DNA of 48,713 bases from NCBI GenBank assembly GCA_905480575.1, contig CAJQQZ010000013.1, positions 1 through 48,713 of the forward strand. Reading direction: 5' to 3'. This document shows positions 5,545-48,713 of the stretch, in pieces. This DNA comes from an uncultured Alphaproteobacteria bacterium (GTDB lineage Bacteria > Pseudomonadota > Alphaproteobacteria > UBA7985 > CAJQQZ01). The position numbers and the translations under genes were made by a program. The notes beneath the pieces are model-generated. The model was not told where the DNA came from. It saw only the letters and a list, made by a program, of their open reading frames with translations, and did no database searches. Position 1 is the first letter of the stretch; each line of letters begins with the position of its first letter.

Positions 5545-5678
5545 AAACAACCACATTACGGACAAACAACAGAATACTTCATTTTACTTAGCGTTAGTTG
5601 GCGACAAAATCTTGTCACAACTCGGTGTTCTAACTATTTCTAAGAACAGAATTCATCACAATCGCAGTAGTGCAACCA

Positions 5679-5706
5679 CTTGGCAAAATCTCCTTGGCAA
5701 AATCTC
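5679..5706 (+). repeat. 14-bp perfect tandem repeat in the yqgE leader
   Basis: CTTGGCAAAATCTC occurs twice head to tail (5679-5692 and 5693-5706), ending two bases before the chosen yqgE ATG at 5709. It takes up the place where a Shine-Dalgarno sequence would sit; none is visible there. Confidence 0.85.
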
Positions 5707-5708
5707 AA

Positions 5709-6287
5709 ATGAGCAAAGATAAATCAAACGACCTCGGCTACCTGACCGGCAAACTATTAGTTGCTATGCCAAATCTTCACGACTCATGGTTTGAGCGAAG
5801 TGTCATCTACATTTGCTCTCATGACGAAGATGGTGCCATGGGGTTAGTCATCAACAAAGAAAACGATGAAGTTTCCAGCCACGACATTGCCAAGCAATTG
5901 GATCTGCCCAACCCTTCGGTACCTAAGTTGGGTGTTTTAAGACATGGCGGCCCTGTTGAAGAACAACGAGGCTTTGTACTTCATTCGACAGATTTCGAAC
6001 AGGAAACCACCGTCAACGTTGCATCAGAATTCGCGTTGACAGCTACCGTCGATATTTTAAAGAAGATCGCCAACAATGATGGCCCTGAAAGCTTCATTGT
6101 TGCACTTGGTTATTCTGGATGGGACGCTGGTCAGCTTGACCAAGAAATCCAACAGAACTCTTGGCTCAGTGTTGAAGCGGACAAAAGCCTGGTTTTCAGC
6201 ACGGCGCTCGACAAGCTTTGGACAGAAGCGATCGGAAAACTTGGGATTACGGCGGCTAGTCTATCAAGTGATTGGGGACACGCCTAA
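5709..6287 (+). CDS. yqgE: YqgE/AlgH family protein
   Basis: A 192-residue member of the YqgE/AlgH (DUF179) family, a widespread conserved family of unsettled biochemical function. Typical features are YLTGKLLVAMPN at the N-terminus, IYICSHDEDGAMGLVIN, the HGGPVE segment and YSGWDAGQLDQEI. The ATG at 5709 places the YLTG motif close to the N-terminus as in relatives; an in-frame GTG at 5670 would add 13 unusual residues. The gene is divergent from dsbD and convergent with the M16 peptidase gene. Confidence 0.93.
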   Translation: MSKDKSNDLGYLTGKLLVAMPNLHDSWFERSVIYICSHDEDGAMGLVINKENDEVSSHDIAKQLDLPNPSVPKLGVLRHGGPVEEQRGFVLHSTDFEQETTVNVASEFALTATVDILKKIANNDGPESFIVALGYSGWDAGQLDQEIQQNSWLSVEADKSLVFSTALDKLWTEAIGKLGITAASLSSDWGHA

Positions 6288-42130: not shown

Positions 42131-42295
42131 GTCATGTATGTCGAGAAAAATAGCGCCTAATGAACGAACCTATCAAATTGGGTAGGTTTATTGTTTCAGT
42201 TTTGCCTTACACTTCTTTGATCATTGAAGGTTCTTCTGCGGTTGTCCAACCCCGAGGGAAGCTCCAATCAAACTGACATGAAGAGGAGGATCAGC

Positions 42296-42769
42296 ATGTC
42301 AACACCCGCACCTATCGACCAAGACCGCCAGCCCTTTGTTGAAATTTCTGAGGAGGTTGCTGCCAGCTTAGACTTGATGAACCAGGTAACGCACCAGCAC
42401 ATGCTCGGCTCAATAGAACTGGTCGCTGAAATCGTTAAACTGATTGAGGCCGCTGGAAACTCTAAATCCGGAGCTCAAGCCGCTGCAGCAAAAGTCGATC
42501 AACTTGCAAACAATGGTGACGCCAGTGAGGCAGAACAGCTCGTCGAAACAACCTCTAGCAAACTGGCTGAAACCGCGAAAGCTTCTCCCAATCAAACCCC
42601 TCCACCAGATGTAATCTTGGGACAAGTCGCAGGCCACGCCATTGGGATAGCCTCTGAAAACACGATCAGAACCCAAGATCAGATCAATATCTTGACACTA
42701 GCAGCCGTTAATGAAGGCATCAGCTTGCTCTATCAACCGGCAGCTGGTGATGGAAAAGGTGGGAAGTAA
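42296..42769 (+). CDS. possible RebB-like protein
   Basis: A 157-residue soluble protein with an excellent AGAGGAGG ribosome site before the ATG at 42296. It is mostly helical and rich in Ala, Gln and Asn. The C-terminal part (AIGIASENTIRTQDQIN, then ILTLAAVNEGISLLYQ) resembles the RebB killing-trait family, whose proteins show an EN...QQ...I..AA...G...LY pattern and take part in R-body formation in some bacteria. Only one copy is present and no RebA/RebC gene is near, whereas R-body loci usually hold several. The family call is therefore tentative. Confidence 0.5.
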   Translation: MSTPAPIDQDRQPFVEISEEVAASLDLMNQVTHQHMLGSIELVAEIVKLIEAAGNSKSGAQAAAAKVDQLANNGDASEAEQLVETTSSKLAETAKASPNQTPPPDVILGQVAGHAIGIASENTIRTQDQINILTLAAVNEGISLLYQPAAGDGKGGK

Positions 42770-45617: not shown

Positions 45618-46088
45618 ATGCCAGACAGACAACTACCAACTAAAGCGACTGAAGACGACTTCCGGAAAGCAGACAGGTTGTGGGGACGAATGACATTCGA
45701 AGTCAACTTGCTAACAACACGCATGAATTGGCTGGTTTCAAGCCAGGCTTTCTTGTTCGCTGCCTACTTTCTAGCGTTAGACAGAATTTCTAACGGCGTT
45801 CAATCGATTGAGGCTTTGATTTTTGCTGTTCCAATCATAGGGCTCATGATTTGCCTCGTGACGGCGATGTATGTGAAAGCAGCGAACGTAATCGTAAGTG
45901 CCTGCCGAGATGAGTTGTTTGAGCTAAAAACCAAGTACCCTGATCAGCTAAAGGACGAGGTAGATGACAACGTCGCAGCAGTTGGCAGTCGCCTCCGCGC
46001 TCAGCTGGCTTCGAAGGTTCTTGTTCTAATGTTTGCTCTGTTTTGGGTGGTGGCGTTCTTGTTGCTCGTTAGTCAGAAAGGTTCTTGA
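45618..46088 (+). CDS. three-helix membrane protein of unknown function
   Basis: A 156-residue protein with predicted helices at about 38-55, 66-86 and 133-151 and a charged amphipathic stretch between the second and third (88-130) that could form a cytoplasmic coiled coil. It starts 5 bases after the SDR stop, so it may be in that operon. No family motif is recognised. The STAND-type ATPase gene follows 206 bases later on the same strand; small membrane proteins next to such ATPases can be effectors, but nothing here proves this. Confidence 0.72.
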   Translation: MPDRQLPTKATEDDFRKADRLWGRMTFEVNLLTTRMNWLVSSQAFLFAAYFLALDRISNGVQSIEALIFAVPIIGLMICLVTAMYVKAANVIVSACRDELFELKTKYPDQLKDEVDDNVAAVGSRLRAQLASKVLVLMFALFWVVAFLLLVSQKGS

Positions 46089-46294
46089 GTAGCTTCATTT
46101 CTGCTGCGGGCTCCCATATTAGAGCAAAGGACGTGAAGGGTTTTGGCGGCAGTGGGTTAGCTCGCCATGAGGACAGCAACACTTGAAAGCCTCAGAATTT
46201 TCCGTCTTGATTTAAGGCTCGGTTTTACTTGTACTTGTATTTCGCAATTCTTCGCACTAGCTATTACTTATAAGAATAAGGGGAAGGCGGAGCC

Positions 46295-47908
46295 TTGCAG
46301 CCATCGCAAGACAACATTTTTGTGAACCGGCATCAGTCGATTGAGAGCGTTGTTGAGGCAATCAACAAGTTGTCCGTCGAGGGTTCAACGGTACGCGTGT
46401 TCTATGGTCCCGGTGGTCAGGGAAAAACCGCGCTTTGTCGTCACCTGTTCCGGCGTGAGTATAAAGAAGCAGAGACCGGCAAGCTCAAGTTACACCGAGC
46501 CTTTCTCGATCTCCATGCCAGACACTCAGCGCTCGAGCCTGAAAAAGCACTGGTTATCATCCGTAATGAATTTGCCAAGTCCGGCGTTTCTATGCCCGCC
46601 TTTGACCAGGCATTAGCTTTGATGTGGGAAACCACAAGAGGTGAAGAGCCCTTCCCCGTTCTAACCAATCCCTGGCTTGGCAAGACTTCAGAAGCTTTCG
46701 GAGCCGTTGCGCCAGAAGCCGTTGTAAAAGTTGGCGAAACAATGGCTGACATTGTGGCGATGGTGCCTGGCATAGGCGCAGGGCTTTCCTGGGCTGGCCG
46801 CTGGTCAATTGACAAAACCAAGCTGGCGCTGCTGAAACGCAGTCATCATCACCTCGCACGGTTGTTTCGTGACGGTGAACCAAAGTACGGCGAAGAATTG
46901 AAGGAATTGCTGCCGTGGATGCTGGCACAGGATTTGGCTTATCATTTAGATAAAAACCCCAGGGATCGCTTTCTATTGCTCATAGACGAATACGAAGGAC
47001 TTTTTGATCAAGGGGGTGCGGGCAACCGCCGACAGGAAACGCCTCTTGATGACCTACTACGATCTTTGATCAAATGCTCCAAAGGGATGTTGGCATGCTT
47101 CTTCTCCAGGGAGCCCTTTGACAAAATCTGGCAGCATGACAGGGACATGACACAAGCCCTGATTGGCAGTCAAACCAAACTGGAGGGCCTGAGCGACGAC
47201 TTCGCCGATGAATGGTTGCAAGAAATTCCCATCCAACGGGCTGACATTCGTCAGGCCATCATTGATGGCTCAAAGGAGGACAAAGACCCTGACGCTCTGG
47301 TTTATCCGCTCCTACTGGAACTTCAGGCCGATCATTGGGCCTGGCTAGTGGACAATCATCGTCCTATTCAGACAGATGACTTTGCGCTGAATGAAGAAAA
47401 ATTCAAGGAGCGTTGTCACAGCCTGATCAACCGACTGCTCAGAAACTATGGCGAAGAAACCCAGAACACCATCAAACGCCTGGCACTGGCCAATCGATTT
47501 GATAAAGCTGCCTTTGATCACCTGATCAAAACCTTTCCCGATGAGAAACTATTGCAATCTTCAGCCTTCGAACGGTTAACCAGGTTGTCCTTTATCTCTT
47601 CCGATGAAGACGGCTTCTTCTCCCTCCACCGGGCGATTGCCGAAGCCTTGGCGGCAGATCTGAACAAAGAAGAAAAAAGCCAAAGCCTCAATGCACTCTT
47701 CGATCATTTTGACCAACGAGCCATTGCCGAAAATCACTGGCTAGTCGACAGTGACAAAGCAACCGCCTTGATTGAAGCCGTGGCTTTGGCAAGGCAGCTT
47801 TCTAAAGAAGATTACATCCCTTGGCTTTATCAAAGATCGGAACCCTTTCGAGTGGCCGCATCAAAGATCGGAACCCTTTCGAGTGGCCGCGCGCTTTGGG
47901 TTTGTTGA
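46295..47908 (+). CDS. STAND/NACHT-like ATPase, N-terminal part of a frameshifted gene
   Basis: A P-loop ATPase of the STAND kind. Walker A is GPGGQGKT (38-45) and Walker B LLLIDEYE (227-234), followed by an arginine-bearing sensor-like segment (FFSREPFDKIW) and a helical arm with a winged-helix-like region around 390-450. The start is TTG at 46295 with GGAAGG upstream. Homology continues to about residue 521; then a 31-bp tandem duplication throws the frame into a short junk tail and stop at 47908. With one repeat copy removed the frame runs on into TPR repeats, giving 733 residues. Related STAND-TPR proteins serve in signalling and anti-phage defence. Confidence 0.85.
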   Translation: MQPSQDNIFVNRHQSIESVVEAINKLSVEGSTVRVFYGPGGQGKTALCRHLFRREYKEAETGKLKLHRAFLDLHARHSALEPEKALVIIRNEFAKSGVSMPAFDQALALMWETTRGEEPFPVLTNPWLGKTSEAFGAVAPEAVVKVGETMADIVAMVPGIGAGLSWAGRWSIDKTKLALLKRSHHHLARLFRDGEPKYGEELKELLPWMLAQDLAYHLDKNPRDRFLLLIDEYEGLFDQGGAGNRRQETPLDDLLRSLIKCSKGMLACFFSREPFDKIWQHDRDMTQALIGSQTKLEGLSDDFADEWLQEIPIQRADIRQAIIDGSKEDKDPDALVYPLLLELQADHWAWLVDNHRPIQTDDFALNEEKFKERCHSLINRLLRNYGEETQNTIKRLALANRFDKAAFDHLIKTFPDEKLLQSSAFERLTRLSFISSDEDGFFSLHRAIAEALAADLNKEEKSQSLNALFDHFDQRAIAENHWLVDSDKATALIEAVALARQLSKEDYIPWLYQRSEPFRVAASKIGTLSSGRALWVC

Positions 47909-48527
47909 AAATCTCTGGCAACAAGCGCTTGTTTTTTGCCTCAAAACCCACGGCGAAAACCACCCCTCTACCGCCGCCTCATACAACAATGTTGCCTATA
48001 ACTTGAACGCGCAAGGACGCTTGCCAGAGGCCGAGCCCCTTGTCCAAAAAGCGCTGGAGATCAGGAAGCGGGTGCTGGGCGAAGACCATCCCGATACCGC
48101 AGGATCATACAACAATGTCGCCTCAAACCTAGATGACCAAGGACGCTTGCCAGAGGCCGAACCCCTTTTCCAAAAAGCGCTGGAAATCAGGAAGCGGGTG
48201 CTGGGCGAAGACCATCCCGATACCGCCGCCTCATACAACAATGTCACCTCAAACTTGAACGCGCAAGGACGCTTGCCAGAGGCCGAGCCCCTTGTCCAAA
48301 AAGCGCTGGAGATCAGGAAGCGGATGCTGGGCGAAGACCATCCCGATACCGCAGGATCATACAACAATGTCGCAACTAATTTGTATTATCTTGGACGGTT
48401 TCAGGAAGGGTTCGAGTATGCCGAAAAAGCCGTTGCGATAGCGCTGAAACGGTTGGGACCAGAGCACCCCAACACCAAGTCTATGCTATCGGTGCTAACT
48501 GCCATCAAGGCCAAATTGGGCCAATAA
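47772..48527 (+). CDS. TPR (kinesin-light-chain type) C-terminal part of the frameshifted STAND gene
   Basis: This frame joins the ATPase gene at the second repeat copy (after about 47860: QRSEPFRVAARFGFVENLW) and continues through about five TPR units of 42 residues with the pattern GRLPEAEPL..KALEIRK..LGEDHPDTA.SYNNVA.NL, typical of kinesin-light-chain/TPR_12 repeats. The first residues encoded upstream of the duplication are out of frame and not meaningful, and no ribosome site supports separate translation. In STAND proteins such repeats sense the trigger, so loss of connection should inactivate the sensor. Confidence 0.85.
   Translation: MKPWLWQGSFLKKITSLGFIKDRNPFEWPHQRSEPFRVAARFGFVENLWQQALVFCLKTHGENHPSTAASYNNVAYNLNAQGRLPEAEPLVQKALEIRKRVLGEDHPDTAGSYNNVASNLDDQGRLPEAEPLFQKALEIRKRVLGEDHPDTAASYNNVTSNLNAQGRLPEAEPLVQKALEIRKRMLGEDHPDTAGSYNNVATNLYYLGRFQEGFEYAEKAVAIALKRLGPEHPNTKSMLSVLTAIKAKLGQ
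47829..47890 (+). repeat. 31-bp perfect tandem duplication that breaks the STAND-TPR reading frame
   Basis: Two identical 31-base copies stand head to tail (47829-47859, 47860-47890). The unit begins ATCAAAGATC and ends GTGGCCGC. Because 31 is not a multiple of three, the extra copy shifts the frame by one. Confidence 0.97.
48015..48392 (+). repeat. three near-identical 126-bp coding repeats (TPR units)
   Basis: Units at 48015-48140, 48141-48266 and 48267-48392 each start GGACGCTTGCCAGAGGCC and encode one 42-residue TPR. Units one and three are almost identical over their first 110 bases, with one mismatch. Confidence 0.95.
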
Positions 48528-48659
48528 GATCTTTTTGGCCCTGGCGGCGCGTTTTTCTCCTTACCTGTTCACCACCATTCCATTTGACACTTTACTTCCC
48601 GCCGCTTAATCCTAAATCCAGTACAAATTCGAATTTCAAAATAACAGGACAGGCTTTTC

Positions 48660-48713
48660 ATGAGATATGAAGCTCCAGGTTCCTTTGAGGCTGCATCGGC
48701 ATTGCTGGCGGCG
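48660..48713 (+). CDS. start of an FAD-binding (CoxM-type) molybdopterin dehydrogenase subunit, cut by the window edge
   Basis: The last 54 bases encode 18 residues beginning MRYEAPGSFEAASALLAA, the pattern that opens CoxM/xanthine-dehydrogenase medium subunits, which carry FAD. An ACAGGACAGG purine-rich stretch precedes the ATG. The remaining subunits (CoxS, CoxL) would be expected just outside the window. Too short for certainty. Confidence 0.55.
   Translation, partial: MRYEAPGSFEAASALLAA

Follow-up and report, generated by a model that had tools for sequence, protein, structure and literature searches.

A 31-bp Tandem Duplication Parts the NTPase and TPR Frames of an Accessory, Probably Inactivated Gene in an Uncultured Alphaproteobacterium

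The Locus and Its Duplication

The window analyzed here is one whole contig (CAJQQZ010000013.1, 48,713 nucleotides) of the 189-contig draft genome GCA_905480575.1, assigned to an uncultured Alphaproteobacteria bacterium. Near its end lie two overlapping open reading frames (ORFs), one for a STAND-like P-loop NTPase (ORF1) and the other containing a TPR array (ORF2). At 47829-47890, between the two halves, a 31-bp unit is present in two exact copies joined head to tail; the contig ends 823 bases past this repeat (Table 1). Our favored explanation, which we hold to be probable, is that a recent tandem duplication has inactivated an accessory STAND-TPR gene and that the result is an ordinary loss-of-function allele, not a dedicated switch.

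Table 1. Coordinates in the window of the duplication, the two frames, and the adjacent features
Feature	Position	Strand	Remarks
31-bp duplication, copy 1	47829..47859	+	unit ATCAAAGATCGGAACCCTTTCGAGTGGCCGC
31-bp duplication, copy 2	47860..47890	+	identical to copy 1, directly adjacent
ORF1, STAND-like P-loop NTPase half	46295..47908	+	537 aa, TTG start
ORF2, contains the TPR array	47772-48527	+	overlaps ORF1 at 47772-47908
TPR half, original 3′ part of the gene, now out of frame	47891..48527	+	four TPR_10 units of 126 bp
8xMP membrane protein family (PF24838), upstream neighbor	45618..46088	+	conserved in the same-genus genome G001
Segment with the STAND-TPR gene	46089..48572		absent at the syntenic place in G001

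The repeat is recovered both by Tandem Repeats Finder (period 31, 2.0 copies, 100% matches) and by a script. It extends in neither direction: the T before it does not match the last base of the unit (C), nor the G after it the first base (A), and there is therefore no microhomology at the repeat. Nowhere else in the genome does the unit occur, even when three mismatches are allowed, and chance alone would give about 1e-14 exact 31-bp tandem repeats in 48.7 kb. Because the copies differ at no base, the duplication event is probably recent.

A scan for tandem repeats was extended to 1.2 Mb of this genome, in stretches covering about 30% of it. Twelve exact tandem repeats of at least 12 bp were found; the 31-bp pair is the longest of them, and no other interrupts a clear gene. 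The others located within long ORFs are 12, 15, or 18 bp, all multiples of three. As a yardstick, 400 kb from two other genomes yielded one exact tandem repeat of at least 12 bp, numbers too small to call an excess. A 14-bp exact tandem repeat at 5679-5706, also in the window, disrupts nothing: it is located a short way ahead of where an AlgH-like gene likely starts.

Effect on the Reading Frame

The length of the unit, 31 = 3 × 10 + 1, means that the repeat tract changes the reading frame by +1. ORF1, whose start codon is immediately preceded by the purine-rich AGGGGAAGG, keeps the native frame to approximately 47860, then runs through about 15 out-of-frame residues to a stop at 47906-47908; its translation across the lesion ends in YIPWLYQRSEPFRVAASKIGTLSSGRALWVC. 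When one copy is subtracted from the coordinates, 2233 − 31 = 2202 bases remain, that is, 733 codons plus a stop in a single frame. Apart from the lesion, both the NTPase and the TPR halves are open. In all these respects, namely the exact direct tandem, the frame shift between ATPase and TPR sensor, the 733 residues of the one-copy form, and the otherwise intact halves, an earlier sequence-only reading of the window proved accurate.

Judging from the frames, the two-copy allele should yield the NTPase with the TPR array missing, and the TPR part probably goes untranslated. The TPR units themselves (47952-48473) form a second layer of repetition, this one in frame: they are 126-bp repeats, the first three of which are 85-93% identical, and such in-frame repeats could alter the length of the sensor.

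One Gene Rather Than Two

Relatives that carry TPR repeats read through the equivalent junction in a single frame. The Flavivirga homologue, 1176 aa long and carrying a TPR_12 repeat, is one frame, and open frames with the NTPase and TPR arrays are found in two genomes of the same phylum (1212 codons in G477 and 1164 codons in G572). Relatives of about 605 aa, present in several genomes of one family in that phylum, are likewise continuous across this position. In several relatives, comparison by eye reveals a helical linker pattern, W-x7/8-F followed by a W and then a G-x-[DE]-H-like motif, just before the first TPR. The window has the same elements distributed over its two frames: reading the first frame through copy 1 gives W510 and the F, and the second frame supplies the other W and GENHP. 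A full multiple alignment put the final residues of the window protein in the wrong place, and the linker comparison was made independently of it. Because the TPR-bearing relatives are single frames, these comparisons support the view that the duplication sits in a segment that is otherwise continuous and that one gene has been broken, as the sequence-only reading had proposed. Naturally separate genes were considered as well and are ruled out by the same relatives.

The homologue on an Acaryochloris plasmid (L003 5877-6901) is also broken, farther downstream and inside its TPR region. The NTPase relatives of about 605 aa (L122-L130) adjoin a small gene whose product has a receiver-like N terminus; at L122 this small gene is a response regulator by Pfam, and a histidine kinase gene comes next. 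This arrangement suggests that these relatives are linked to two-component signaling.

Protein Class

The NTPase half contains a Walker A motif, GPGGQGKT, at residues 38-45 and an acidic Walker B motif, LLLIDEYE. G38, G41, G43, and K44 in the former and D231/E234 in the latter are invariant in four homologues, and the distant homologues of Flavivirga, Salipiger, and Acaryochloris keep both motifs. The second frame matches TPR_10 (6e-65) and TPR_12 (1.5e-63). The NTPase half is below every Pfam NTPase gathering cut-off, with 20.4 bits for NACHT (cut-off 26.7), 19.8 for nSTAND1 (27.1), and 13.4 for NB-ARC (23.5). The STAND label given in the sequence-only reading therefore depends on weak profile matches together with homology to other NTPase-TPR proteins. 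An AlphaFold2 model, built from a two-sequence alignment only, has a mean pLDDT (predicted local distance difference test score) of 36, too low to be of use in judging whether a winged helix and a helical arm follow the NTPase fold.

An Accessory Gene and Its Neighbors

In G001, the only other genome of the same genus, the 2.48-kb segment that carries the STAND-TPR gene is missing, with 25 bp in its place. The neighbors are kept there: cupin, GFA enzyme, short-chain dehydrogenase, and 8xMP membrane protein, then the same downstream sequence. Since G001 has these neighbors without the gene, the STAND-TPR gene is accessory, and its distribution is patchy. Its own genome has no intact second copy. 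A protein search found no homologue in 95 relatives, in 386 other genomes of the class, or in phages and viral contigs, and a class-wide profile search returned four weak matches (E of about 3e-4 to 9e-4) over short stretches only. On contig L119 of G001, a 216-aa ORF (5590-6240) that is lacking in the present genome lies between the short-chain dehydrogenase and 8xMP genes; both sides of the 8xMP gene are therefore variable.

A role in defense, raised by the sequence-only reading, found little backing. The gene itself has marginal PADLOC matches only (SngB, E = 0.008; generic TPR), the scanned neighbors have no PADLOC match, and most of those examined encode metabolic, transport, or small membrane proteins. 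Such a role is thus no more than a guess based on the class of protein. Farther upstream, at 42224-42769, lies an ORF with a C-terminal match to RebB, of the R-body “killing trait” family; a similar ORF is present in the same-genus genome.

The Assembly

Contig ends in this draft often share exactly or nearly 141 bases. The last 141 bases of the window (48573-48713) are identical to 6889-7029 of L119, where that contig also ends, although the neighboring genes are only 74-86% identical. A shared end of this kind, with both contigs stopping at the same base, may be either a node of the assembly graph common to both or a segment exchanged not long ago. A k-mer length of 141 is the largest default k of MEGAHIT. 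Because the ends share exactly 141 bases, the genome derives from a k = 141 short-read graph and is apparently a bin; it and G001 were probably binned from a single metagenome assembly. The 62-bp array of two copies falls inside single 141-base k-mers, and therefore reads carrying the junction should have existed. An overlap artefact at k = 31 was rejected: only one exact tandem of period 31 occurs in the scanned 1.2 Mb, and the contig ends indicate k = 141. The sequence-only reading had listed an assembly error among its options; a systematic artefact is unlikely, as judged from the assembly pattern rather than from reads.

Weighing the Explanations

Among the three readings offered beforehand, fresh inactivation agrees best with the findings. 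The duplication probably arose within the accessory gene through slippage or template switching; the resulting +1 shift would leave a 537-residue protein that keeps the NTPase and loses the TPR array, and the allele would be inactive or unregulated as a result. Deletion between the copies would restore the frame, making the lesion revertible in principle, as duplications in pneumococcal capsule genes are. The simplest view is that of a loss-of-function allele in the sampled population. Some points weigh against it. The draft is apparently a bin from a metagenome. Comparison with relatives yielded a same-genus genome without the gene and no one-copy allele, which leaves the past of the lesion, its frequency, and its fixation beyond their reach; and, for lack of a close relative, selection on the gene is not measurable. 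A misjoin that created the second copy also deserves consideration in a fragmented draft whose contig ends shortly downstream and whose 126-bp TPR array begins about 60 bases beyond the duplication. Such a fault seems unlikely, because both copies fit in one k-mer of the 141-base graph, the three TPR units aligned in register share exact stretches of at most 72 bases, shorter than k, and, with no other 31-bp exact tandem in 1.2 Mb and no k-related pattern, it would be unique.

A different proposal is a contingency switch, in which a 31-bp copy is gained or lost often and the population keeps ON (one-copy) and OFF (two-copy) cells of a costly signaling or defense protein. It would agree with the otherwise intact halves, with the phase variation by repeat copy number known in Mycobacterium tuberculosis promoters (PMC12817950), and with the connection of STAND proteins to conflict systems made in the literature (PMC7159879). 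Nevertheless, we regard it as decidedly unlikely: a single allele is seen, no microhomology or other sequence feature favors recurrent duplication, no second gene with such a repeat occurs in 1.2 Mb, and duplications do not always revert, since one in agrA of Staphylococcus aureus gave no revertants (PMC6686034). Of the switch suggested earlier, reversibility in principle survives and a selected on/off use is unsupported; that the duplication is a natural switch parting the NTPase from its TPR sensor in an environmental population is improbable. Least credible is the possibility that the frames are used as they stand, together through frameshifting or apart through internal initiation, giving a split or regulated protein. 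ORF2 does overlap ORF1 and both are open, but the stretch from the repeat to the ORF1 stop contains no correctly phased X-XXY-YYZ slippery heptamer, the candidate starts in the TPR frame are TTG or GTG only and none has a clear Shine-Dalgarno sequence, and the TPR-bearing relatives are single frames; we give this possibility very little weight.

If switching were true, immune-like STAND receptors would be kept as restorable OFF alleles, a cheap reserve of a costly receptor. If there is no switch, as we favor, the locus would be a clear example of loss of an accessory NTPase-TPR gene, and also a caution, as gene callers would list two proteins where one existed.

Comparison With Known Systems

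Like STAND NTPase-TPR proteins of the NACHT, nSTAND, or NPHP3_N-like kinds, the window protein has a P-loop NTPase followed by 42-residue TPR_10/TPR_12 repeats. It differs from them in an NTPase that scores below the Pfam cut-offs, in having no recognized N-terminal effector domain, and in its broken frame, the relatives being single-frame. As to the repeat, the M. tuberculosis promoters mentioned above, for example that of dop with a 57-bp unit, resemble it in having repeats, tens of bases long, whose number can change reversibly; there, however, the level of expression and not the reading frame is affected, and subpopulations were measured. Closer in form are the spontaneous tandem duplications within pneumococcal capsule genes (type 3 capsule locus, cap8E, and tts; Waite et al., 2001, 2003, as cited in PMC4022640). 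For those genes, phase variation was reported in culture, whereas the present case is a single allele, known from an assembly, of an accessory NTPase-TPR gene; in both, a short tandem duplication within an ORF silences, or here would silence, the gene, and loss of one copy can restore function.
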